Below, in pieces: positions 9,327 to 40,698 of a stretch of 62,154 bases of DNA (positions are counted from its first letter, which is position 1; the number at the start of each line of letters is the position of its first letter). The stretch lies in the IMG/VR virus record IMGVR_UViG_3300009183_004163, positions 1 to 62,154 of that record, one strand, 5' to 3'. Below the pieces are notes generated by a model. That model did not search any database. It was not told the origin of the DNA and saw nothing but the letters and a program-made list of their open reading frames with translations. A program made the translations under genes and the position numbers. Source of the stretch: a virus.

Positions 9327-9532
9327 AAATACATTATAGAGAACCTACTGTAGTAGAACAGATGAATAATGCCATTAAGGTCAGCGACGAAGCTAATAGA
9401 AAACCCATTGATTATTTTGAATTAACCAGCCAGGAGCTGAATTCTAACTACAGCAATTTTGATAAAACTACGGGCAAGGACAATACAACTGCCTATTCAT
9501 ACAAGGGCGTTGCAATAAAGGTTAAAGAATGA
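9323..9532 (+). CDS. Small protein of unknown function (69 aa)
   Basis: The ATG at 9323 overlaps the stop of the phosphoribosyltransferase gene (ATGA), which decides the start over a longer upstream option. Polar protein (MKIHYREPTVVEQMNNAI...), no family recognised. Its stop overlaps queE by ATGA, so it is inside one coupled operon. Confidence 0.65.
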   Translation: MKIHYREPTVVEQMNNAIKVSDEANRKPIDYFELTSQELNSNYSNFDKTTGKDNTTAYSYKGVAIKVKE

Positions 9533-10392
9533 AAATTAAAGTCAGCGAATTATTTTATAGTCTTCAAGGAGAAGGTCGATTTGTTGGGGTACCCAGCGTG
9601 TTCTTAAGAACATATGGTTGCAATTTTACGTGTAGTTCGTTTGGGTGCAAGCCAGGCGAAAAGTCAACAGGTGCAGATGAGGTGGCAGAAGTAGTTCACT
9701 TGTATGATAAGTTTACAGATTTGCCATTGGTGGAAACCGGATGCGATAGTTATGCAAGTTGGCATCCAGCATTCAAGCATCTAAGTCCTAACATGCCAAC
9801 AGAAGATCTAGTTGCCAACATGTTGTTGTTGACTCCCAACAACCATTGGATGCAAAACAACGGTAATGATGTACACTTGGTTATTACAGGTGGTGAGCCT
9901 TTGCTGGGCTGGCAACGTGCTTACGAAGAATTGCTAAGTCATCCTGACATGGCCGACCTCAAGAACATCACATTTGAAACGAACGGCACTCAAGCACTAC
10001 AAGACGGTTTCAAACATTATGCTTATAACAGACATTTGCTTAACGGCACAGAGTTTACATTCAGTGTGAGTGCTAAATTAAGTGCGTCTGGCGAGAAAGC
10101 CGAAGATGCTATTTGCCCTGACATTGTCAAAAGCTACCAAGATTTAAATGTTGGGCCTGTGTATCTTAAGTTTGTAGTTGAAACTGAAGAACACGTCAAC
10201 GAAGCGGTGCAAGCTGTAGATCAGTATCGTGCGGCAGGATTTACAGGGCTAGTCTATCTAATGCCACAAGGCGGTGTTGTTGATCCATATGAATCAAACA
10301 AGTTAAACATTGCCAACATCTGCTGTGAACGTGGATTTAACTATAGCCCACGCTTGCATGTGGACTTGTGGGGCAACGGCTGGGGCAAATGA
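9529..10392 (+). CDS. queE: 7-carboxy-7-deazaguanine synthase (radical SAM)
   Basis: 287 residues. QueE rearranges 6-carboxytetrahydropterin (QueD product) to 7-carboxy-7-deazaguanine using SAM and a 4Fe-4S cluster. SELFYSLQGEGRFVGVPSVF is the family N terminus. The cluster motif is split: C31 and C35 (CNFTC) are followed by an insert and then GCDSYASW with C72, which lines up with the usual third cysteine of CDTxY. I recall this insert from other phage QueE proteins. LVITGGEPLL (about 119-128) is the SAM-binding GGE motif. No queC is visible in the window. Overlaps the next gene by ATGA. Confidence 0.88.
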   Translation: MKIKVSELFYSLQGEGRFVGVPSVFLRTYGCNFTCSSFGCKPGEKSTGADEVAEVVHLYDKFTDLPLVETGCDSYASWHPAFKHLSPNMPTEDLVANMLLLTPNNHWMQNNGNDVHLVITGGEPLLGWQRAYEELLSHPDMADLKNITFETNGTQALQDGFKHYAYNRHLLNGTEFTFSVSAKLSASGEKAEDAICPDIVKSYQDLNVGPVYLKFVVETEEHVNEAVQAVDQYRAAGFTGLVYLMPQGGVVDPYESNKLNIANICCERGFNYSPRLHVDLWGNGWGK

Positions 10393-10625
10393 TGGGTGCC
10401 GGTTACTATTCTCCTGGTGTAGATGCTTACGATCACTTTTATCATAAAGCATTTTGGCGACTAAGATTTTTATGGTGGCCTAAACGTAGTGACATAACAG
10501 GACATTGGTTATGGTTACGCCAAGCGTACGAAGGTACGGCAATGTATCATGGGCCAGGCGAAGCTGTGTTTGAGTTTAGATATCACGAGCCCAAAGAACA
10601 TTTAATATGGAATTTAAAGAAATGA
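10389..10625 (+). CDS. Small protein, member of the phage small-paralogue family (78 aa)
   Basis: The ATG at 10389 sits in an ATGA overlap with queE. The protein is rich in W, Y and H (WRLRFLWWPKRSDITGHWLW) and ends VFEFRYHEPKEHLIWNLKK. That ending resembles the C termini of the small proteins encoded at 29.8-32.0 kb and 38.9 kb: a beta strand, an acidic turn, then an aromatic-x-L-basic ending. Function unknown. Confidence 0.65.
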   Translation: MMGAGYYSPGVDAYDHFYHKAFWRLRFLWWPKRSDITGHWLWLRQAYEGTAMYHGPGEAVFEFRYHEPKEHLIWNLKK

Positions 10626-11368
10626 AATTACAAGATCGTATCACCGCCTGGATTCGAGACTATGCCGCCACAGCTGGTATGCGCAGTTTAGTAGTTGGTA
10701 TCAGCGGTGGTATTGATAGTGCTGTAGTCAGCGCACTCTGCGCTAGAACTGGCTTGCACACAGTAGCAGTAACTATGCCTATTCGTCAACGTCCAGACTT
10801 ACACGATCTCAGTATGCAACAAGGTGTTTGGCTGACACAAAACTTTGACAATGTGCGCCACGACATCATTGATTTAACTTCAACATTTGATGAGTTTGAA
10901 GGCCGATTGGCTACCTACAACAGTTTGTTGGGGTTTGCCAACAGTCGTAGTCGACTACGCATGGTTACCCTGTATCAAATTGCTCAAACAGTTGGTGGTC
11001 TTGTGGTAGGCACTGGCAACAAGGTAGAAGACTTTGGTGTGGGATTTTATACCAAGTACGGTGATGGTGGGGTGGACATCAGTCCCATTGCTGACTGTTA
11101 CAAAACAGAAGTATGGCAAATGGGCCGTGAACTAGGTGTGTTACAAGATATTATCAATGCGGCACCCACAGATGGCTTATGGGATGATGGGCGTACCGAT
11201 GAAGATCAACTGGGTATGAGCTATGCTGATTTAGAAGTTGCTATGCGTATGGATCTAGGTGAAATTAAATCCGCTGTGCCAGAACTTGTGGCTAACTTGG
11301 AAAAATTTCGTACTATACAAGCCCGTAGTTTGCACAAAATGAATCCTATTCCTGTATTTAAAAAATAA
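10622..11368 (+). CDS. nadE: NH3-dependent NAD+ synthetase
   Basis: 248 residues from the ATG at 10622, chosen because it overlaps the previous stop by ATGA; an ATG 15 bases upstream is possible. The PP-loop VVGISGGIDSAVV is at the N terminus. GTGNKVEDFGVGFYTKYGDG, then SPIADCYKTEVW and PTDGLWDDGRTDEDQLG are NadE signatures. The enzyme amidates nicotinic acid adenine dinucleotide to NAD+ using ATP and ammonia. There is no N-terminal glutaminase domain. A phage copy may keep NAD+ up during infection or counter NAD-depleting defences; that part is inference. QueC was considered and rejected. Confidence 0.93.
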   Translation: MKLQDRITAWIRDYAATAGMRSLVVGISGGIDSAVVSALCARTGLHTVAVTMPIRQRPDLHDLSMQQGVWLTQNFDNVRHDIIDLTSTFDEFEGRLATYNSLLGFANSRSRLRMVTLYQIAQTVGGLVVGTGNKVEDFGVGFYTKYGDGGVDISPIADCYKTEVWQMGRELGVLQDIINAAPTDGLWDDGRTDEDQLGMSYADLEVAMRMDLGEIKSAVPELVANLEKFRTIQARSLHKMNPIPVFKK

Positions 11369-11387
11369 TAGGATTTGTTGGTATTGG

Positions 11388-11395
11388 TATAAATA
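11388..11395 (+). promoter_or_regulatory. TATAAATA box (late promoter-like)
   Basis: TATAAATA ends 5 bases before the ATG at 11401, with no ribosome binding site between, in the only gap (32 bases) between nadE and the endonuclease gene. It would give a leaderless transcript. Confidence 0.5.
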
Positions 11396-11400
11396 TATGT

Positions 11401-12069
11401 ATGAATACCACATACCAACCTTACACTTATTTGATCGGATGGCAAGAACAACAAAAATACTACTATGGCGTAAGATACGCTAAAAATTGTTCTCCTGGAG
11501 ATTTCTGGACCAAATATTTTACCTCATCTCCTGCTGTTTTGGCTATGCGGTTAAAGCACGGAGACCCAGATATTATACAAATTAGAAAAACTTTCTCAAC
11601 TAAAGAACAAGCAAGGCAGTGGGAAACACGAGTATTAACCAAAATGAAAGTTGTTGTTCGTGAAGATTTTCTTAACAAAAACGATGCTCCTGCACCTCCA
11701 ATTAATGATCGAGTTATGTCATCTGAAACCAAGGCAAAAATTAGTTCGGTTCATAAAGGAAAACCAAAATCAGAAGCACATAAACAAAAAATTAGAGAGG
11801 CCAGAGCACAGCAAGTAAATACTAGGAAGGGTATTCCAACATCTAAAGAAACAAAGCAAAAACTTAGAGAAGCAAACTTAGGAAAAACATATTCAGAAGA
11901 TGTTAATTCTAAAAAAGGTCAAAAAAAGGAATTGCATTGGACTTACGGAAAACCAAGAGCAGAAGAAACAAAGCAAAAACTTAGAGAAGCAAATTTAGGA
12001 AAAGTTTTGTCAGAAGAAACAAAACAAAAAATGCGTGGGCCAAGATTAAAATTAAAGGATATTGAATGA
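11401..12069 (+). CDS. GIY-YIG homing endonuclease with NUMOD3 repeats
   Basis: 222 residues. The N-terminal YTYLIGWQEQQKYYYGVRYA is a GIY-YIG nuclease core (Y-L-I-G ... Y-Y-G). From about residue 105, repeated SSETKAKISSVHKGKPKSE-type units (at least four) are NUMOD3 DNA-binding modules, as in Seg and group I intron endonucleases. Such genes copy themselves into unoccupied sites. It stands free between nadE and the sugar dehydrogenase gene, has its own TATAAATA box and ends in ATGA overlap with the next gene. No intron is obvious around it. The nuclease core is short for the class, so activity is likely but not certain. Confidence 0.85.
   Translation: MNTTYQPYTYLIGWQEQQKYYYGVRYAKNCSPGDFWTKYFTSSPAVLAMRLKHGDPDIIQIRKTFSTKEQARQWETRVLTKMKVVVREDFLNKNDAPAPPINDRVMSSETKAKISSVHKGKPKSEAHKQKIREARAQQVNTRKGIPTSKETKQKLREANLGKTYSEDVNSKKGQKKELHWTYGKPRAEETKQKLREANLGKVLSEETKQKMRGPRLKLKDIE
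11848..12003 (+). repeat. 39-bp direct repeat inside the endonuclease gene (two copies)
   Basis: Copies at 11848-11886 and 11965-12003 differ at one base. They encode two NUMOD3 units (ETKQKLREANLGK), so this is a recent duplication inside the DNA-binding part rather than a separate element. Confidence 0.85.
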
Positions 12070-13307
12070 AAAAATGTAAGGTGGGATTCATCGGAATTGG
12101 AAAATTAGGATTAGACTGTGCCGAAGTATTTGCTGAAAAGCACGAAGTACGCGGTTACGACATTTACCCACGCACTAGCGATTCAGTAAAAGTATGCAGT
12201 ATCAAAGAGCTTGTTGAAGAAAGCGAATGGATTTTTATTGCTGTTCCCACTCCACACGCCGAAGGTTACGATGGAAGTGTTCCGTCAAGTCATATGACTC
12301 CCCGAGACTTTGGGCATGATGCTGTTATTGATGCTATTACTAAAGTGAATCAATATGCTACTAGCCCCAAAAAAGTAGTATTGATTAGTACAGTACTACC
12401 TGGAACAACTCGCAACAAGTTTGTTCCACTACTAGATACTAAACACCAATTTGTTTACAATCCTTATTTAATTGCTATGGGTTCAGTTAAGTGGGACATG
12501 GTCAACCCTGAGATGATTATGTTGGGCACAGTGGATGGTAGTTTAACTGGCGTAGCTGGTGAACTTAAAGACTTGTACAAAACTATCATGCAAAACAATC
12601 CACGCTACGAAGTCGGCACATGGGATGAGTGCGAAGCTATTAAGATTTTCTACAACACATTTATCAGTGCCAAGGTCGGCCTAGTTAACATGGTACAAGA
12701 CTTTGCTATGAAGATTGGCAACATCAACGTTGACGTTGTTACAGATGCCCTGGCCAAGAGCACAATGCGTATCATGGGTCCCAAATACATGACAGCAGGC
12801 ATGGGTGATGCAGGTGCTTGCCATCCTAGAGATAACATTGCCTTGCGTTGGTTAGCTGAAGAGTATGATATTGGTTACGACTTGTTTGACACTGTCATGC
12901 ATGCTAGAGAAATTCAAGCAAAGAACTTGGCCTTGTTCCTAGTTGAGCAGGCCAAGAAACACAACTTGCCTGTGGTCATTCACGGTAAAGCCTACAAGCC
13001 AGATGTTGAATACTGCATCGGTAGTTATAGCACATTGGTTGGATTCTATGTAGCCGAGGCTGGGCATAGTGTCAGCTATGTTGATCCACTTGCTGATAAT
13101 TGCGACGATGTAGTTGTTACTGTAGATCACCCAGCAGTGTTTTTATGGGCACACAATCGTAAGATCACATACGAGTATACCGGTGACCAACTAGATACAC
13201 AACCGTATTGTACAATCTTACCAGGAAGTGTTATTGTTGACCCATGGCGCAAATTACCCGTTGACATGCAGGATATAACTGTAGTACACTATGGTAATAC
13301 TCGATAG
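12066..13307 (+). CDS. UDP-glucose/GDP-mannose 6-dehydrogenase family protein
   Basis: 413 residues. The N-terminal Rossmann motif is GFIGIGKLG (7-15); IFIAVPTP (56-63) is the second nucleotide signature; the catalytic cysteine is C252 in GDAGACHPRDN (family GGxCxPKD). HGKAYKPDVEYCIGS is the C-terminal UDP-binding region (usually KPxxxDxRxSP). The family oxidises the C6 hydroxyl of a nucleotide sugar to a carboxylate using two NAD+. The relaxed motifs suggest a different sugar from UDP-glucose. It starts by ATGA overlap with the endonuclease gene. Confidence 0.85.
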   Translation: MKKCKVGFIGIGKLGLDCAEVFAEKHEVRGYDIYPRTSDSVKVCSIKELVEESEWIFIAVPTPHAEGYDGSVPSSHMTPRDFGHDAVIDAITKVNQYATSPKKVVLISTVLPGTTRNKFVPLLDTKHQFVYNPYLIAMGSVKWDMVNPEMIMLGTVDGSLTGVAGELKDLYKTIMQNNPRYEVGTWDECEAIKIFYNTFISAKVGLVNMVQDFAMKIGNINVDVVTDALAKSTMRIMGPKYMTAGMGDAGACHPRDNIALRWLAEEYDIGYDLFDTVMHAREIQAKNLALFLVEQAKKHNLPVVIHGKAYKPDVEYCIGSYSTLVGFYVAEAGHSVSYVDPLADNCDDVVVTVDHPAVFLWAHNRKITYEYTGDQLDTQPYCTILPGSVIVDPWRKLPVDMQDITVVHYGNTR

Positions 13308-13313
13308 GAAACC

Positions 13314-13697
13314 ATGCTAAAAATATTTGACATCTTTAAAAAGAAAAAGGCCATTGCCGCCGAGCAACCAACGGCTCCACAAAAAACGGAGAAAGAGATT
13401 GCTAACGAAAAAGGCGAGCCTTATGTCAATATTGTTAGCATGGAGATTGACCCCGAAAACATACAAGCTGGCGCATTTGAACTAGACTGGAACGATAAGT
13501 TTGTAGCTAATCTAGTTCGTGCTGGCTACCAAATGGATTCTAAAGACACAGATGCTGATATTGTAGACCGTTGGTTTACAGCAGTATGTCGCAATGTGGT
13601 TTTGGAAACTTACGAGCAGTACGAAGCTATGAATCCCGAACGTGACCGTGTGGTAAAAACTCGCAACATTGGTGATGGCAGATCTGAAGTATCATGA
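13314..13697 (+). CDS. Conserved phage protein of unknown function (127 aa)
   Basis: A ribosome binding site (GGAAACC) lies before the ATG. The N-terminal FDIFKKKK is strongly basic; FELDWNDKFVANLVRAGYQM and CRNVVLETYEQYEAM are conserved-looking blocks that I associate with hypothetical proteins of T4-like cyanophages. No enzymatic motif. Stop overlaps the next start. Confidence 0.75.
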   Translation: MLKIFDIFKKKKAIAAEQPTAPQKTEKEIANEKGEPYVNIVSMEIDPENIQAGAFELDWNDKFVANLVRAGYQMDSKDTDADIVDRWFTAVCRNVVLETYEQYEAMNPERDRVVKTRNIGDGRSEVS

Positions 13698-14398
13698 TGC
13701 TATATGTCAACGGTGACAGTCACACTGCTGGTGCCGAGGCTGTAAATCCTCATGCATTTGCCGAAGACGATCCTGCCTTATTTTATCTAGGTCGTGCGCC
13801 GCACCCGGACAATCTTGCAGTCAGTTGGGGCAAGATATTAAGTTTGGCACTTAGATCGGGTCTTCGATGTGATGCTGAGAGTGCTAGTAGTAACGCTCGT
13901 ATCATAAGAACTACACGTAACTGGTTAGCCGGCGGCGGCAATGCCCATCCAGATCAGTTGGTCATCATACAATGGTCAACTTGGGAACGAGAAGAATGGT
14001 TGCATAACGAAACTTATTACCAAGTTGGTGCCAGCGGAATTGATCATGTTCCACAGGATTTGCAAGAAACGTATAGAAACTACGTGCTTGGTACTGATTG
14101 GAAAATCAAAACTGAACAGGCACATGAAGAAATTTGGCAGTTTCATGCCGAATTGAAAAACCAAGATATTAAACATATTTTTTTCAATGGCAATAATGAT
14201 TTTAGTAACATCACCGATCAAAAAAATTGGGGAGTTAATTACATTGGCCCGTATAATCCCGCTCAAACGTATGATGCTATTATCCGATCAACCGGCATAG
14301 AAACAGTCATGCCCAACTCATGGCATTTTGGACGAGATGGCCACTCAAGTTTTGCTCGTTTTATTCTCAATTACATCATGTCCAATAAGTTTGTCTAA
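13694..14398 (+). CDS. SGNH/GDSL-type hydrolase
   Basis: 234 residues. Block I LYVNGDSHTAG has the nucleophile serine in GDS; a middle block SSNARIIRTT supplies asparagine; the C-terminal DGHSSFARF gives the DxxH catalytic pair. These proteins are esterases or acyltransferases, often acting on sugars. Two adjacent ATGs exist (13694 and 13697); the first overlaps the previous stop by ATGA. Substrate unknown. Confidence 0.8.
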   Translation: MMLYVNGDSHTAGAEAVNPHAFAEDDPALFYLGRAPHPDNLAVSWGKILSLALRSGLRCDAESASSNARIIRTTRNWLAGGGNAHPDQLVIIQWSTWEREEWLHNETYYQVGASGIDHVPQDLQETYRNYVLGTDWKIKTEQAHEEIWQFHAELKNQDIKHIFFNGNNDFSNITDQKNWGVNYIGPYNPAQTYDAIIRSTGIETVMPNSWHFGRDGHSSFARFILNYIMSNKFV

Positions 14399-15486
14399 TG
14401 AATCTTAATACTTATTGTTCATTACCGTTTTCAGGTTTTGATAACAGAACCTCATCCGCATGTTGTTGGTTGAAATTAGATGAGAAAGTAAATTCATTTG
14501 CAGAAATGCAACAATCTACAGAAATACATGAATTACAACAAACATTATTGTCAGGAGTTAGACACTCTAAATGTGGTGCATGCTGGGAAAGTGAAGATTT
14601 CAATATTATAAGTATGCGTCAAACAGTTTTATTAAACAAAAATGAAGACGAAATTATTAAAGAAATCACGCATAAGAAATTAAAATATCTAGTTATTGAT
14701 AGCGGAAATGTTTGTAATCTTGCATGCCGTACGTGCGGGCCATCGGCAAGTTCAGGCCTTATAAAAGAATTTAGAGTAAGGTATGGGCAAGATTATTACC
14801 GTATAAAAAAAACAAAAATTGATTCTCTGCTAGAAGAGGATTACAGTGACTTAATTCGCATAGATATTCTAGGGGGTGAACCTTTTCAAAATTTAGATCA
14901 TTTAATGGTGCTTGAAAAAATTATTACTAATGGTAATAGTAAAAATATTACGCTTAGTTATACTACTAATGCTACTACAAAATTATCACCGCAGATTTAC
15001 AATTTATTCTCCAACTTTAAAAAAGTAAATTTAATAGTATCAATTGATGCTACTCATATGCAATTTGAATATATTCGAACCAATGGTATATGGAATGATG
15101 TTGTTAGTAATATTAATGAATGGCGTTCTAAGTTTTACAATATTAGATTGTCCGGTCACCCAACTATTAGTGCATTGAATGTTTTGTATCTTGATGAATT
15201 GTATACATGGTACCAAGCTAACAATATAGATTATAATTTTGTTATGGGTGCTAACATTCCTGAATATTCGTTTTCTTTATTCACAGACAACCAAAAAAGT
15301 CTAATTATCAGTAAATTATCTAACTCAATGTTTAACATGGCTCAGATTAAAGATCATGTACGCTCATCAAACTATGATTCTAGCCTACTAAGTAAATTTT
15401 ATGAATCTACTAATTTTACCAAATCTTTTAAAGGTCTTGATATTGAGGAGTATCTTCCACGGTTAACTGAATTATTAAAAAAATAG
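14398..15486 (+). CDS. Radical SAM protein with N-terminal cysteine-rich (twitch-like) region
   Basis: 362 residues. C106, C110 and C113 (CNLACRTC) bind the SAM cluster, and ILGGEPF is the GGE motif. The N-terminal 65 residues carry C7 (YCSLPF), C22-C23 and C59/C62 (CGAC), the layout that recurs in six genes at 53-62 kb and is usually taken as an auxiliary iron-sulphur region. Substrate unknown. It starts by TAATG overlap with the SGNH gene. Base composition looks richer in A+T than its neighbours, so it may have been acquired separately. Confidence 0.85.
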   Translation: MNLNTYCSLPFSGFDNRTSSACCWLKLDEKVNSFAEMQQSTEIHELQQTLLSGVRHSKCGACWESEDFNIISMRQTVLLNKNEDEIIKEITHKKLKYLVIDSGNVCNLACRTCGPSASSGLIKEFRVRYGQDYYRIKKTKIDSLLEEDYSDLIRIDILGGEPFQNLDHLMVLEKIITNGNSKNITLSYTTNATTKLSPQIYNLFSNFKKVNLIVSIDATHMQFEYIRTNGIWNDVVSNINEWRSKFYNIRLSGHPTISALNVLYLDELYTWYQANNIDYNFVMGANIPEYSFSLFTDNQKSLIISKLSNSMFNMAQIKDHVRSSNYDSSLLSKFYESTNFTKSFKGLDIEEYLPRLTELLKK

Positions 15487-18518: not shown

Positions 18519-18547
18519 TTGACGGTAAGAATGTTAAAGGGTATAAT
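18519..18547 (+). promoter_or_regulatory. Promoter of the tmRNA gene
   Basis: TTGACG (18519-18524), 17-base spacer, TATAAT (18542-18547). Predicted start near 18554, about 30 bases before the T-arm of the tmRNA acceptor piece. Confidence 0.7.
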
Positions 18548-18793
18548 TAAAGAATTCGTTGAAGGTAGAAGTATGGCGATCAAGACTCGGGTGCAACTCC
18601 CGACATCTCCACCGGAGAGTATTAGATAGTATTCTGCGGTGGGGATGAATTAGAATCGATTGGCGCTAAAGGGCTACTGGAGGATCGGCAATGTAGAAGC
18701 CGTTAGGATTGGGACTACTCAGTCGAAGACACAAAAACTTTAAATGCAAACGCATCTAAAGGCGAAGTAACTGTAACTGGTAAGAATGTTAAA
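18524..18793 (+). repeat. 15-bp direct repeat, one copy in the tmRNA promoter, one in the tag
   Basis: GGTAAGAATGTTAAA occurs at 18524-18538 (spacer of the promoter) and 18779-18793 (tag codons GKNVK), in the same reading frame relative to the surrounding open frames. The two copies bracket 240 bases of tmRNA sequence. Confidence 0.9.
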
Positions 18794-18835
18794 TTCTCTG
18801 CTCGCACAGCACAACGCCAACCATTAGCAGTTTAA
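18746..18835 (+). other. tmRNA tag-peptide reading frame (29 codons + stop)
   Basis: Starts at the expected resume codon GCA after an A-rich stretch (ACTTTAAAT) and encodes ANASKGEVTVTG... ending QRQPLAV. The beginning (AN) is typical. The tag is long compared with the 8-16 residues of most species and ends LAV, where LAA is usual. The second half (NVKFSARTA) resembles cyanobacterial tags (NIVKFAR..) as I recall them. Confidence 0.7.
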
Positions 18836-18877
18836 TCACTGCTTAGGGGAATTATCCCTCGTAACAGAAAATAGTAG

Positions 18878-18902
18878 AACCCGCTTCGGCGGGTTTCTTT
18901 TT
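18878..18902 (+). terminator. Rho-independent terminator of the tmRNA
   Basis: AACCCGC TTCG GCGGGTT (stem 18878-18884/18889-18895) followed by TCTTTTT. Confidence 0.9.
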
Positions 18903-19026
18903 ATGCGTTGCTAACTCCTAAAAGTACCAAGAAAGTCTGCAAAAATTGCTAACCACTAGTAGTAACCACTAAATATTTGTCTAGGTTCACAGATCAGTGA
19001 ACTTTCTTTTAAAAGGAAATATTAGA
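18903..19026 (+). promoter_or_regulatory. Leader of the outer-membrane protein gene: direct repeats and hairpin
   Basis: TAACCACTA occurs twice, 13 bases apart (18950-18958, 18963-18971), next to CTAAATA, and could be a protein-binding site. GTTCAC AGATCA GTGAAC (18985-19002) is a perfect 6-bp hairpin in the probable 5' leader. AAAAGGAAA precedes the ATG at 19027. I see no consensus -35/-10 pair. Confidence 0.45.
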
Positions 19027-19479
19027 ATGAAAAAAGTAATCTTAACAGTAGCATTAACTGTAGCCGCCGGGGTTGCAAGCGCCGCTGATGTTGGTGTGTA
19101 TGGTGGTCGCAATATGGGTTCCGAAAACAATCTGGTTGGTATTTCAGTTGGACAGTCTTTTGGAAAAATTGGTGTTCAAGCCACAGCCGATCGTAGCACA
19201 ACTCAGCGTACCGATGTAAATCGTTACACTGCTAGTGCCAGCTATGATGTAATTAAATTAGGTCCAGTACAAACTAATGTTCGTGCAGGCGTTGCTTTTG
19301 TCGATCCACAAAGTGCAAAAGCATCCAATGGCGGTGCTGGTTTTATAGGTGCCGGTATTGCATACCCAGTTACATCTAAAGTTAATTTAGTTGCTGATTA
19401 TGCATATCAAAAAGGTAACAACATTACTAAAGCATACGATGGTAACATTGTAACTGCCGGTGTCAAGTACTCATTCTAA
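19027..19479 (+). CDS. Secreted outer-membrane beta-barrel protein (150 aa)
   Basis: MKKVILTVALTVAAGVASA is a classic Sec signal peptide with an AxA cleavage site before ADVGVYG. Mature residues alternate polar/apolar in strands (GKIGVQATADRST, YTASASYDVIKLGPVQTNVR, KVNLVADYAYQKG) and the protein ends in VKYSF, the C-terminal aromatic recognised by the BAM complex. About 130 mature residues fit an eight-stranded OmpX/OmpW-like barrel. A phage-encoded outer-membrane protein could block receptors or alter permeability; that is inference. The ATG at 19027 is chosen over an upstream one because of the AAAAGGAAA site and signal peptide. Confidence 0.8.
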   Translation: MKKVILTVALTVAAGVASAADVGVYGGRNMGSENNLVGISVGQSFGKIGVQATADRSTTQRTDVNRYTASASYDVIKLGPVQTNVRAGVAFVDPQSAKASNGGAGFIGAGIAYPVTSKVNLVADYAYQKGNNITKAYDGNIVTAGVKYSF

Positions 19480-19530: not shown

Positions 19531-20409
19531 TTAAACCTTGTTAGGTTTTAGATTTGAAAATTGTATTTTTTTGTATTCGTATGACTCGGGGCAAAATTTA
19601 CATTGCGGAATAGGGTCATCTAGTGTACGGAAAAATTCTTCACCGCGTTCATCAAATTCATCTATACTCAACCCACGATAACTATGTATCAGTGCTCTGT
19701 CTTCATCCGATACATCAAATGGATACTGTTGATCAAACTGTTGCATTAACGGTGCCGGTCCACATTTATGAATTTTTCCATCAATGAAATGATAATTTTT
19801 CCACTGTACAAACCCACAATTGCTGTGTGCTTTTAATGGATCACTATTATATAATTTAAATTCACCGTTAGGACCTTCTATAATGTTGCTTTGATTAAAG
19901 TGATCACTAATCCATACATGAACTTCAACTCTATTAGCATCAATAAATTGAAATGTAGACCCAATGGGTGAATTTAAATCGTTAGTTTCTTTTATAGGAT
20001 GCACCAGATAATTTCTAATACGAGTAAAAATTGCATCTCGATCATCAAGCGAATGTAAACTAATTCCTATCCAAGCCCCGATTGCCTTGCACGAGTCGTA
20101 CAATCCTGGAACTAAATCAATCCTGGTACCGTTTGATTGTATTTGTGGTGCATAGTGATCTGGCCACAAGAGACGTATTCCTTCAATCCATTTAGTGATT
20201 GAAGGATTGAGTAGTGGTTCTCCGCCAAGAACCACTGGCTTAATAATATCAATTTTTTCCGCCCACTTTTTAAAAATTGGTTCGTAATCTTCCCATTTTT
20301 CCCATCCAGCAAATTTATAATTATTGTATCTATTGCAACCGGAGCAGGTTAAATTACATACATTTGTGATATAAAATTCTAGTTTATTAATGATTATTCG
20401 TTGTGTCAT
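19531..20409 (-). CDS. Radical SAM protein
   Basis: 292 residues from the ATG at 20409, which overlaps the upstream gene's stop (ATGA). C18, C22 and C25 (CNLTCSGC) bind the SAM cluster; VVLGGEPLLNP holds the GGE motif. Further cysteines near the end (NCGFVQW, HKCGPAP, QCKFCPE) may bind an auxiliary cluster. It lacks the N-terminal cysteine region of the 53-62 kb proteins. Substrate unknown. It pairs with the next radical SAM gene as a two-gene operon. Confidence 0.85.
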   Translation of the reverse strand: MTQRIIINKLEFYITNVCNLTCSGCNRYNNYKFAGWEKWEDYEPIFKKWAEKIDIIKPVVLGGEPLLNPSITKWIEGIRLLWPDHYAPQIQSNGTRIDLVPGLYDSCKAIGAWIGISLHSLDDRDAIFTRIRNYLVHPIKETNDLNSPIGSTFQFIDANRVEVHVWISDHFNQSNIIEGPNGEFKLYNSDPLKAHSNCGFVQWKNYHFIDGKIHKCGPAPLMQQFDQQYPFDVSDEDRALIHSYRGLSIDEFDERGEEFFRTLDDPIPQCKFCPESYEYKKIQFSNLKPNKV

Positions 20410-21431
20410 AGTGTTTGTTTGTTTACAGGAGGTTTCCACGATCCGCAAGTATTTACACAAGTATACAATCTGCCTTCTGCAATGCTTGGCATATCCCATG
20501 TGTGTTCAACACTATCAAACCATTTAATACAATCTTCCAATGACGATTCCAAGGCATTATTTCCTTGCACTAAAAGTTTTAATTGTTCATTGCCTGCGTG
20601 GTGCATGGTCTTTGGATAATAGCCAAGATAACAACATGGATATATTTCTCCATTTGCAGCAATATATAATTCTTGATTTCGTTTATGATTACACCCAATA
20701 TTCAGTGGAGTGATGTCTTTTGATGATTTAAATGTTTTTGCATCAAACCAAGTGATATGACTTTGTATCATGGAGATAATATCAGGCTCTATAGCAGTGT
20801 TGGGCCATGGTTCACCAAGCCAATGACTAAAATCCCCAGTACGACTATAAACTGGTCCATTGTTTCTTCCATCACTAATGTTATCAAAATATTTAAATCC
20901 TAATTCTTTGGCCAATTCTCTACACTCTTTTTCTTGATGTTGATTATGGGTAAATGGAATAAATCTCCAAATTGCAGTGCCGCCGGCGGCAATAAATGCT
21001 GTAGCATTTTTAATTACCGTATTCCAATCCGTATCCTGACGATAGAGAGAGTGCGTGTCTGCTAAGCCATCCAATGCAAATCCCACTTTGACTCCTGGCA
21101 GTGCTAACCGTGCCCACCAATCTGGAGTTCTCATGCTACCATTGGTGTAAATATTAACATTACAGTTATTATCAACTAGGTACCGAACAATCTCAATTCC
21201 GTCTTTGGCCAGTCCAAAATCTCCCAAATTACCATTAAACAACACATGGTCGATTTGCTTTAAAAAATCTGGTTTCAATATTTTTTTAATATCTTCTAAA
21301 GACAACTCAGTTATTGGATATCCGCTATTGTACTCAAGCCCCCGATAATTACGCATGCACATGGGGCATCGAGAGTTACAACGAGTAGTAAGTTCAATTT
21401 GAAGTCGAGTAATTTCGTGGAGTTTAAGCAT
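20406..21431 (-). CDS. Radical SAM/SPASM-type protein
   Basis: 341 residues from the ATG at 21431; a longer TTG start at 21461 is less likely. C18, C22, C25 (CNSRCPMC) form the SAM cluster motif. The GGE motif is replaced by LFNGNLGDFG. The C-terminal IGCNHKRNQELYIAANGEIY, then PCCYLGYYP and CVNTCGSW form a SPASM-like auxiliary cluster set, as in peptide- or sugar-modifying maturases. No precursor peptide is seen nearby. Unusual for this window in being on the minus strand between + genes. Confidence 0.85.
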   Translation of the reverse strand: MLKLHEITRLQIELTTRCNSRCPMCMRNYRGLEYNSGYPITELSLEDIKKILKPDFLKQIDHVLFNGNLGDFGLAKDGIEIVRYLVDNNCNVNIYTNGSMRTPDWWARLALPGVKVGFALDGLADTHSLYRQDTDWNTVIKNATAFIAAGGTAIWRFIPFTHNQHQEKECRELAKELGFKYFDNISDGRNNGPVYSRTGDFSHWLGEPWPNTAIEPDIISMIQSHITWFDAKTFKSSKDITPLNIGCNHKRNQELYIAANGEIYPCCYLGYYPKTMHHAGNEQLKLLVQGNNALESSLEDCIKWFDSVEHTWDMPSIAEGRLYTCVNTCGSWKPPVNKQTL

Positions 21432-21454
21432 GGAATATTTATGTACTATACTGG

Positions 21455-21483
21455 TTGACAAAGTATAAATACCCTTGTATAAT
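21455..21483 (+). promoter_or_regulatory. Strong consensus promoter before the candidate RNA/tRNA block
   Basis: TTGACA (21455-21460), 17-base spacer, TATAAT (21478-21483). The spacer also contains TATAAATA. It points away from the minus-strand radical SAM gene. Confidence 0.8.
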
Positions 21484-38884: not shown

Positions 38885-39124
38885 GTGCAAAAAATTACAT
38901 TCCATTCTTTTAGTATGGGCGATGTAGAGGATCCAGAACTCTATGTCGCACAACCATTATATGAGTGGCAACAAACAGAACAAGGTCAGTGGGCGATGAA
39001 AAACTGTTCAGACCCACAATACATTGTACGAGCCGATGAACACAACTGGGGACACAAAATCATTGTGTACGGTCTAGTAGAAGATCAATTAGCCACAGAA
39101 TACTTACTACGGTGGGGCAAATGA
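38885..39124 (+). CDS. Small paralogue family protein (79 aa)
   Basis: GTG start one base after the previous TAA. Ends KIIVYGLVEDQLATEYLLRW then GK, the same ending as the array at 29.8-32.0 kb. Overlaps the radical SAM gene by ATGA. Function unknown. Confidence 0.7.
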   Translation: MQKITFHSFSMGDVEDPELYVAQPLYEWQQTEQGQWAMKNCSDPQYIVRADEHNWGHKIIVYGLVEDQLATEYLLRWGK

Positions 39125-40698
39125 AAATAATAGAGTTTGAGCAACTTAAAAGTGATTTAAGTAAACAATATAAAGTTGATTGCTGGATCTTTCTTGAGGA
39201 TCTTGAACACAGTCCCAGTTCTACATTTTATAAAACCCTAGTATCATTTCAACAGACGGCCTACAACAACAATTATAGATTTATTTTATGTAATGCTAAA
39301 CCGTTACAACCGGCAACACTAGATCATGTTGCTAGTATAATTAACTATCTTGACATCAGTCCCTACTTTGTTGAAATTTATACCAATCAACATCAAACAG
39401 CAGATTTTTTTAGATCACTGACTTCTCCAATTACTGTACATCAAACACAGGTAACAAGAACTGACGTGCTGTGTTTAGATACAATTCCACTGTTCAACGC
39501 CAACAAAAAAATGTGTGCTCATGCCTGGGCTGGATTGCATGTCTGGACTGATGGCACAGCCGGAGTATGCTGTGATTACAAAGGAACAATCACAGACCCA
39601 GACGGTGTTCCGTACAATATCAAACAACACTCAATTGAAACCATAGTCTCTAGTGATTACATGAGCAATGTTAGAGATCAGATGAGAAACAATATTGATC
39701 CTGTGGGTTGTGCAAATTGCACCAAAAGAGAACAGATGGGCGTTGATTCGCGTCGTACATTGTCTTCTTATAGATTAGAAAATATTTGGGGACTAATTGA
39801 TTGGGAAAGCAATGATGTCTCAAACAACTTGCGTTATGTGGGTGGGCATCTTGGAAACTTGTGCAATCTAAAATGTCGCATTTGCGATCCAAGTTTTAGT
39901 TCAACTGTGGCAGCTGAGCAGTTGTCTCAGATACCACAAGATCAACGCAAACAGCATCCTGCTTATCAATGGACCGAAAACACCAGCTGGGCAAAAAAGA
40001 AAAACGAGTTTTGGGATTCACTTAAACAGCGTGCCGGGCAAATCAAAGTGTTTGAGTTTTTAGGTGGCGAGCCACTTATGCTAAAACAGAATTTAGATTT
40101 TATGCAGTATTTGATAGATCAAGGACACAGTCAGGACTGTATATTTGATATTACTACCAATGGTACTCTGTGCCCAGATATCTTTAAGCAAGTGGATCAA
40201 TTTAAAAGGCTAGTGGTCACTGTTAGTATAGACAACGTCGGGGAAAAATTCAACTATGAACGCAAGGGTGCTGACTGGGATTTGGTTGTTGCTAACCTAG
40301 ATCAGTTTAAACAGATAAGATCTGCCAACTCAAAATTAAAAATAGGCGTGTGTGTTACAGTAAATATTCAGAATGTATTTTATCTACCCGAACTGATTGA
40401 GTGGATAGACCGTCAACAGTTTGATCATTATTATCTAAACTTGCTGACTCATCCAGAGTATCTCAGCGTAAGTAATTTAACCGAGCAGGCCAGACTAATG
40501 ACCTTGAACAAATTGTCTCAGTGGAAATTCAACAACGAAGCCAGGAAAAAAATACAGTCGGTATTGTGCCTGCTACAAGAGCAAAAATACTCAGACAACA
40601 CAACATTTATACAAGAGATGAAGCAAAAGGATCATTGGAGAAATGAAAATTTCTCTAGTACACACAAAGAAATTGCCAAGGCCATGGGATATGATTAA
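39121..40698 (+). CDS. Radical SAM protein with extra N-terminal domain and twitch-like cysteines
   Basis: 525 residues from the ATG at 39121 (ATGA overlap). Residues 1-115 form an extra domain (NYRFILCNAKP, YLDISPYFVEIYTNQ) resembling the N-terminal part of the protein at 56982-58673. Then C132, C150-C151, C197 and C200 form the cysteine region; C248, C252, C255 (CNLKCRIC) the SAM cluster; FEFLGGEPLMLK the GGE motif. It overlaps a 2OG-oxygenase-like gene by 8 bases. Substrate unknown. Confidence 0.87.
   Translation: MKIIEFEQLKSDLSKQYKVDCWIFLEDLEHSPSSTFYKTLVSFQQTAYNNNYRFILCNAKPLQPATLDHVASIINYLDISPYFVEIYTNQHQTADFFRSLTSPITVHQTQVTRTDVLCLDTIPLFNANKKMCAHAWAGLHVWTDGTAGVCCDYKGTITDPDGVPYNIKQHSIETIVSSDYMSNVRDQMRNNIDPVGCANCTKREQMGVDSRRTLSSYRLENIWGLIDWESNDVSNNLRYVGGHLGNLCNLKCRICDPSFSSTVAAEQLSQIPQDQRKQHPAYQWTENTSWAKKKNEFWDSLKQRAGQIKVFEFLGGEPLMLKQNLDFMQYLIDQGHSQDCIFDITTNGTLCPDIFKQVDQFKRLVVTVSIDNVGEKFNYERKGADWDLVVANLDQFKQIRSANSKLKIGVCVTVNIQNVFYLPELIEWIDRQQFDHYYLNLLTHPEYLSVSNLTEQARLMTLNKLSQWKFNNEARKKIQSVLCLLQEQKYSDNTTFIQEMKQKDHWRNENFSSTHKEIAKAMGYD

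Follow-up and report, generated by a model that had tools for sequence, protein, structure and literature searches.

A phage permuted tmRNA gene with a long, conserved tag that lacks the usual Ala-Ala end

To our knowledge, it is not settled why phages keep tmRNA genes. The question is raised again by a locus in 62,154 nucleotides of viral DNA (IMG/VR virus record IMGVR_UViG_3300009183_004163, positions 1 to 62,154, handled here as G000), a stretch that is called the window below. An earlier note, made from the letters of this DNA, had described a complete-looking, circularly permuted ssrA gene in it, and the present analysis asked whether this gene is a working tmRNA and what would become of the proteins that receive its tag. 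Permuted ssrA in phages is not new, because a two-piece ssrA of phage Melnitz (an OM43 phage) has been published (PMC9004378) and because a generic permuted pattern matched at least 120 stretches in IMG/VR; the earlier remark that a phage copy would be notable is thus out of date. The Melnitz report lists 133 unique tmRNA structures from 402 of 18,146 phage genomes, 53 "of these" being two-piece according to ARAGORN (PMC9004378), and a tmRNA database holds 79 bacteriophage tmRNA sequences (PMC11915505). The new part of the window gene is its long conserved tag with an LAV end, which the earlier note left unremarked and which is seen so far in phages alone, within the collections searched.

The anatomy of the gene was read from the given (+) strand, on which all its parts lie. 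Positions 18554-18835 match the Rfam model RF04321 (tmRNA_permuted) over its full length (model positions 1-213 of 213) with 75.7 bits against a gathering cut-off of 47 (E 9.7e-13). Among the other Infernal models that the earlier note had recommended running, alpha_tmRNA (RF01849) came out just above its cut-off (51.1 against 50, covering model positions 80-179 of 355), whereas beta_tmRNA (RF01850) stayed under its own (50.1 vs. 84). ARAGORN, also recommended, called six tRNAs and no tmRNA in the window, a miss that is taken as a limit of the program and not as a defining property of the molecule. The T-arm (18587-18603, TCGGG-TGCAACT-CCCGA, its stem formed by TCGGG at 18587-18591 and CCCGA at 18599-18603) and the acceptor 3' strand (18604-18613, CATCTCC at 18604-18610 followed by ACC) precede the acceptor 5' strand GGGGATG (18641-18647), which is the permuted order first noted from the sequence and now borne out by the RF04321 alignment. 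All seven acceptor pairs form, the third being a G.U, so that the 5' strand carries the G3.U70 alanine identity pair. The CCA end is incompletely encoded, with ACCG after the acceptor. The P2 helix likewise forms: its 5' strand (18574-18583) pairs within 18660-18668, as UGGCG/CGCUA plus a 3-bp inner part that is UCA/UGG in the energy model (-7.9 kcal/mol) or CAA/UUG in the RF04321 alignment. The D-loop AATTAGAATCGA together with the P2 3' strand occupies 18648-18668 by sequence, RF04321 alignment and P2 pairing, and the segment 18588-18660 folds at -35.2 kcal/mol (z -6.6).

Between the two pieces lies an intervening segment (18614-18640) that forms part of a hairpin in the fold and is presumed, by analogy with known permuted tmRNAs, to be removed in processing. 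The window's spacer is a short hairpin only; spacers in other permuted tmRNAs of phages can carry a micro-ORF with a Shine-Dalgarno-like AAGG directly after the acceptor. Such micro-ORFs were counted in 29 of 219 distinct spacers, compared with a mean of 6.2 over 50 rounds of letter shuffling, a set in which some are close relatives and some frames continue into the tmRNA (e.g., L140, L147, L156, L197, L227, L230, L248, L287; several hydrophobic, such as MDQEAVLVVAFLLIGLLFVFL and MNDDLTPLAIGVVVVLVVFALVLL).

Downstream of P2, the hairpins CGGC/GCCG and GATTGGG/CTCAGTC (18686-18724, 5' of the resume codon) mark a possible pseudoknot region, in which the fold gives hairpins only, no better than shuffles (z -0.62). 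The tag frame begins with the resume codon GCA and runs for 29 codons, ANASKGEVTVTGKNVKFSARTAQRQPLAV, at 18746-18832 to the stop TAA at 18833-18835 (frame 18746-18835). As had been proposed for this locus, a stop-codon hairpin follows (18826-18843, AGCAGT-TTAATC-ACTGCT, -10.2 kcal/mol, z -2.2) and holds the TAA in its loop. The gene had also been described as enclosed by a promoter and a terminator. An intrinsic terminator stem is present at 18877-18896 by terminator search and fold, and the sigma-70-like promoter candidate TTGACG-17-TATAAT (18519-18547, 11 of 12 matches) exists; however, promoter-like matches in the region are no commoner than in its shuffles (10 vs. a mean of 8.1, sd 3.4), and the promoter is therefore unproven. 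Transcription from this candidate would be expected to start close to 18554, the first position of the RF04321 match. An exact direct repeat of 15 nt, GGTAAGAATGTTAAA, was additionally observed at 18524-18538 (within the promoter spacer) and 18779-18793 (inside the tag core); it is above chance expectation for the window, for a sequence that was picked after being seen, and its upstream copy would encode DGKNVKGYN and then a stop.

These features place the RNA among permuted tmRNAs of known kind, which is nearly certain. With the alpha- and betaproteobacterial permuted tmRNAs (RF01849 and RF01850, merged as RF04321; PMC11915505) the window gene shares gene order, acceptor stem, T-arm, P2 and resume codon context; it differs in having G55/A18 where the RF04321 consensus has U55/G18. 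Like the window, Melnitz and other aquatic phages carry permuted ssrA, for which a role in host or phage protein turnover has been predicted (PMC9004378). In Melnitz, the ssrA falls among alphaproteobacterial sequences and is associated with a predicted glutamine riboswitch (PMC9004378), whereas no Rfam riboswitch matched in the window.

Whether the gene functions was addressed with its relatives. A tag-core pattern search of viral records returned 71 stretches, 69 of which hold such tags (L126 and L172 do not), so that the earlier suggestion to look for the same locus in other phage DNA yielded 69 further viral stretches and, with the window, 70 tag-bearing loci. The acceptor could be placed in 69 of the 70, since L175 starts too close to a contig end. 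All seven acceptor pairs form in 69 of 69 loci, among which there are 11 different stems, pairs 4 to 7 varying in both strands; this pairing is partly selected, because the script demanded at least six pairs and a GG start. G3.U70, which the script left free, is likewise present in all 69. The T-stem adjoining the acceptor has five of five pairs in 66 loci and four in the other three, where T-stem pairing raised the script's score and was not a requirement. The acceptor is followed by ACCA in 34 loci, ACCT in 20, ACCG in 13 and AAAA in two. Across 157 distinct pairs of P2 halves, each half paired with its own partner at a mean of -5.48 kcal/mol, compared with -3.09 kcal/mol for swapped partners (sd 0.11, 20 shuffles). 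All 13 tag loci that were tested reached the RF04321 cut-off, as against none of six loci without such a tag. G3.U70 is also shared by all 153 distinct tRNA-like domains (TLDs) of phages, a count that is partly imposed because the generic permuted pattern fixes both positions, a constraint of which the 69 loci from the tag pattern are free. Among the same 153 TLDs, positions 55 and 18 (18593 and 18652 in the T-loop and D-loop of the window) read U55 with GG in 86, G55 with AG in 57 and G55 with AGG in 10, the last with an ambiguous register and all counted with kinship ignored; it looks as though the tertiary pair G18-U55 has been swapped for A18-G55 in part of the phage TLDs.

One explanation would make the locus a decaying captured ssrA without function, as the incompletely encoded CCA, the divergent D-loop and T-loop and the negative ARAGORN result might suggest, or else an inhibitor of host tmRNA, a role suggested for the tag-less TLD of mycobacteriophage DS6A (PMC4131195). 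Compensated acceptor stems that keep G3.U70, the P2 covariation and a conserved coding tag with its stop hairpin speak against decay, and this explanation is taken to be very improbable. Conversely, that 18554-18835 is a functional permuted tmRNA is held with great confidence.

The tag itself is the unusual part. At 29 amino acids, the window tag is longer than the commonest tag length of 10 amino acids in the tmRNA database (PMC11915505). At the DNA level the 70 loci hold 43 different tags, which encode 37 different peptides of 27-29 amino acids. The search pattern left eight codons free, namely those for VTVS, for the T/S that follows the core and for the final three residues. These codons form 23 distinct strings, which differ per pair by 0.85, 0.34 and 2.52 at the first, second and third codon positions, with a pN/pS of 0.35. 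Over the core, pN/pS was 0.20 in 26 cores whose tags were reached via other modules, a set preselected with a relaxed form of the motif and in which some loci also came from the tag pattern. Additionally, the core serine is encoded by both TCN and AGT. Combined, these patterns suggest that the tag is very likely under selection at the peptide level, beyond that on the RNA alone.

The end of the tag departs from the rule. An Ala-Ala end is what E. coli ClpX needs most, and this C-terminal feature of the canonical ClpXP degron is absent from the window tag, which ends in PLAV. In 69 of the 70 loci the tag ends in [LF]AV, L175 having LAA. A second scan provided a comparison: among the matches that it listed, 101 TLDs were placed at new loci and 86 tags were read, 62 of them 9-14 amino acids long, with ends of Ala-Ala in 78, Ala-Val in three and others in five. 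All three Ala-Val tags among these listed matches belong to the family of the window tag, and three of 86 understates the frequency of the family because loci already fetched by the tag pattern were left out. Since the final Val codon lies partly inside the stop hairpin, pairing may shape this end, and RNA pairing could account for part of the change from A to V.

Ordinary phage trans-translation would offer one account of such a tag, with host ClpXP or ClpAP reading it as a normal degron and the extra residues serving as a longer unstructured handle. An AAV version of the E. coli tag still leads to degradation of GFP, at a slower rate (PMC9382460), and the Ala-Ala end is kept in those 78 of 86 phage tags among the matches listed. 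The rescue machinery is, moreover, presumably the host's, because no SmpB was found in 17 tag-bearing phage records, some of them surely fragments, and this also suits a host reader. A passive linker, however, would not be expected to keep V-T-V-S-G-K-N-V-K-F-S-A-R with mainly third-position changes, or to lose Ala-Ala in 69 of 70 loci, so that ordinary host reading appears somewhat unlikely.

The tag family was then traced outside the viral records. In 84,980 species genomes the tag-core pattern matched four times, never with RF04321, and no bacterial tmRNA with the core was found; tblastn of one family tag against 50,697 GenBank phage records gave no match, and GKNVKFSAR did not occur in a literature text search. 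Comparison of the tag with Pfam and PHROGs returned no match and no known family. Against PDB profiles the tag had three weak matches, each of them to an Ig-like domain of myosin-binding protein C (best E 1.1). Mimicry of the HU C-terminus by the tag was considered and dropped for want of support in Pfam or among these PDB matches. An AF2 model had a mean pLDDT of 61, with three short strands at low confidence and no confident fold.

Tag and tmRNA body are swapped as modules, because one D-arm module bears differing tags: the window-type D-arm was found in 21 stretches, of whose 20 readable tags 15 belong to this family (two of them divergent) and five are short, one further tag being cut by a contig end. 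Other long phage tag families were also observed (FTGNTV, FEYFQV/FEYFTV, EAEVMTF, NVTFVNFG and EVTVP, at loci such as L024, L197, L204, L227, L243, L248, L042 and L015), some with a canonical short tag at their end. Several unrelated long families of this sort (FTGNTV and FEYF types) are what would be expected of functional modules, and they lend some weight to a non-proteolytic job in which the tag stabilises, sorts or inactivates proteins (e.g., as a partner-binding beta-strand module) or in which the peptide itself is active. The three predicted short strands point the same way, yet a low-confidence AF2 model is no evidence of a fold, and the searches of Pfam, PHROGs and PDB profiles found no homologue of the tag; a non-proteolytic role is considered unlikely.

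Proteases that might read the tag were sought in the same 17 tag-bearing records, in which, fragments included, no Lon was found. Clp proteins were found in the largest relatives. All three records of more than 300 kb (G002, G003 and G004) encode ClpP, ClpX and a ClpA-type ATPase. Each has two ClpP-family proteins, one of which is canonical in sequence: these canonical-looking proteins score 315.9, 309.3 and 251.4 bits against the subfamily cut-off of 249 (NF001368) and lie just under that of the stricter equivalog TIGR00493 (305.9, 293.9 and 232.1 vs. 308.6). ClpX scores 505.7-509.6 bits against an NCBIfam cut-off of 359 (NF003745), and the ClpA-type proteins that were scored (G004 and G005) have TIGR02639 as best match, under its curated cut-off. 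Of 16 placed records, eight extend 73 kb or more 5' of the tag, and every one of these has a ClpA-type ATPase at 44-61 kb in that direction; in the other eight, with 50 kb or less, none was found. In the three large records, ClpX is encoded approximately 141-148 kb 5' of the tag, two of them measured around the ends as if circular.

A Lon degron would be another way of accounting for a long tag. The ssrA tag of Mesoplasma florum is, like that of the window, longer and without the canonical ClpX ending (PMC8138137, PMC9382460), and it is a precedent for a long, non-Ala-Ala tag that came with a change of protease, the long tag replacing the ClpX degron and being read by Lon. That tag is bacterial and ends in NYAFA where the window tag ends in PLAV, and the phage group has Clp, with Lon not found (PMC9382460 for the florum tag). 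A Lon acting here would have to be the host's, because no phage Lon was seen in the 17 records, and this host is assumed to have ClpXP, unlike the Mollicutes. Reading by host Lon is accordingly regarded as decidedly unlikely.

ClpP as a marker of this particular tag was weakened by a control in which 9 of 20 records matched PF00574. Nineteen of the 20 bear other tags, two of which are in records with strong matches (G025 and G027); the remaining record, G017, has a tag of the window family and no PF00574 match. The weak matches (E about 1e-26 to 1e-34) may be head maturation proteases, like the second ClpP of G002-G004. The strong matches are in G025 (L017, 578,292 bp), whose permuted tmRNA has an ordinary-type tag, ANDNVAMDYAVAA, with an AVAA end, and in G027, which has a different long tag. 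G025 also has a ClpX above the cut-off, which was found in none of seven records of 157-278 kb with other tags, and a ClpA-type ATPase was also found in G019 and G023, which bear other tags. Because G025, G027, G019 and G023 have them, Clp genes accompany large phages widely and not this tag alone. The published jumbo phages Atu_ph07 (PMC6102473) and AP-J-162 (PMC11242549), like the large relatives here, encode their own Clp proteins, including ClpX, and AP-J-162, the one phage that a literature search turned up with Clp and tmRNA together, has one annotated tmRNA besides (PMC11242549). The passages of these two reports on which we draw make no link between Clp and a tmRNA tag (PMC6102473, PMC11242549).

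The phage ClpX proteins were compared at the loops that read the tag. In G002-G004 the IGF loop is kept, whereas the RKH loop, RKHP in four solved ClpX proteins in the alignments, reads RKV, RKS and RKT, and the position of pore-2 Thr199 holds T, A or S. According to Fei et al., KM for ssrA-tagged GFP rises strongly with H230A and with T199A, and it also rises when either of the two final Ala residues of the ssrA tag is mutated (PMC7652416). The phage ClpX may, by analogy, be a poor reader of a host-type tag. Co-evolution of the loop with the AV end was nevertheless weakened as an explanation, since the ClpX of G025 also lacks the histidine (its RKH loop reads KRG) although the tag of that phage ends in AVAA; the loop change is thus not specific to an AV tag. 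A pairing of the LAV end with the phage ClpX is put forward as a hypothesis from sequence comparison.

For the window phage itself, a record of 182,566 bp (G001) matches the window exactly over 8,801 bp, and in this record 18.8 kb lies 5' of the tag. No Clp gene was seen in that record, and with 18.8 kb available 5' of the tag this absence says little about the window phage. Judging by the relatives, all of which are virus records that may be fragments, its Clp genes would lie off the contig. Over 268 residues, the terminase of the window phage shares 79-82% identity with its counterparts in the three large records, and seven genes 5' of the window tmRNA keep their order in all three, the tmRNA lying 9-15 kb further on there. 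The best terminase match in GenBank is to Pseudomonas phage PA5oct and its relatives (58.9% identical), and similarity of the locus to GenBank phage records was confined to the terminator or to short, chance-level matches. Several other genes were noted along the way. The gene directly after the tmRNA terminator (18997-19479) encodes an outer membrane beta-barrel-like protein (Pfam OMP_b-brl, E 3.7e-5, under the curated cut-off), and the regions 9529-15486, 19531-21461 and 39112-40698 hold several radical SAM proteins, a QueE-like protein, an NAD synthetase and a UDP-glucose dehydrogenase. In the 182-kb record, the terminase frame (L318, 1402-2337) continues into CLSPDSVLTLKD, which resembles the start of an intein.

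The reading that we prefer joins these observations as follows. The window gene would be transcribed and processed into a permuted, presumably two-piece tmRNA that is charged with alanine; with host SmpB, it would enter ribosomes stalled in infection, free them and append the 29-residue tag. The tagged products would then pass to a reader that is not host ClpXP acting in its usual Ala-Ala mode, the best candidate being the phage group's ClpX and/or ClpA with ClpP, which would make up a private line of rescue and disposal. Direct support comes from the RNA anatomy, the covariation, the coding selection on the tag, its restriction to phages in the collections searched and the Clp genes of the three largest relatives. 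Taken as a whole (trans-translation by the phage with a private tag that most likely alters the fate of tagged proteins, and phage Clp as the best candidate reader), this reading is given somewhat less than an even chance. Within it, an altered fate of the tagged proteins is rather probable, and reading of the tag by phage Clp, a suggestion from gene content and sequence, is a tentative proposal. The most specific version, in which a jumbo-phage pathway runs apart from host ClpXP and its adaptors and a private, Val-ending degron would be destroyed by phage ClpX/ClpA-ClpP with altered loops, is possible though doubtful.

A conserved tag that is seen in phages alone and lacks the usual degron end, together with Clp in the relatives, turns the role of these genes into a testable question, namely whether the tag is a private degron, a stabiliser or something else. 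The several tag families additionally suggest that the tag frame of phage tmRNA is a fast-evolving, swappable module. If the tag is private, it would belong to a natural orthogonal pair of degron and unfoldase with value as a tool, and these phages would be taking over ribosome rescue as a whole pathway.
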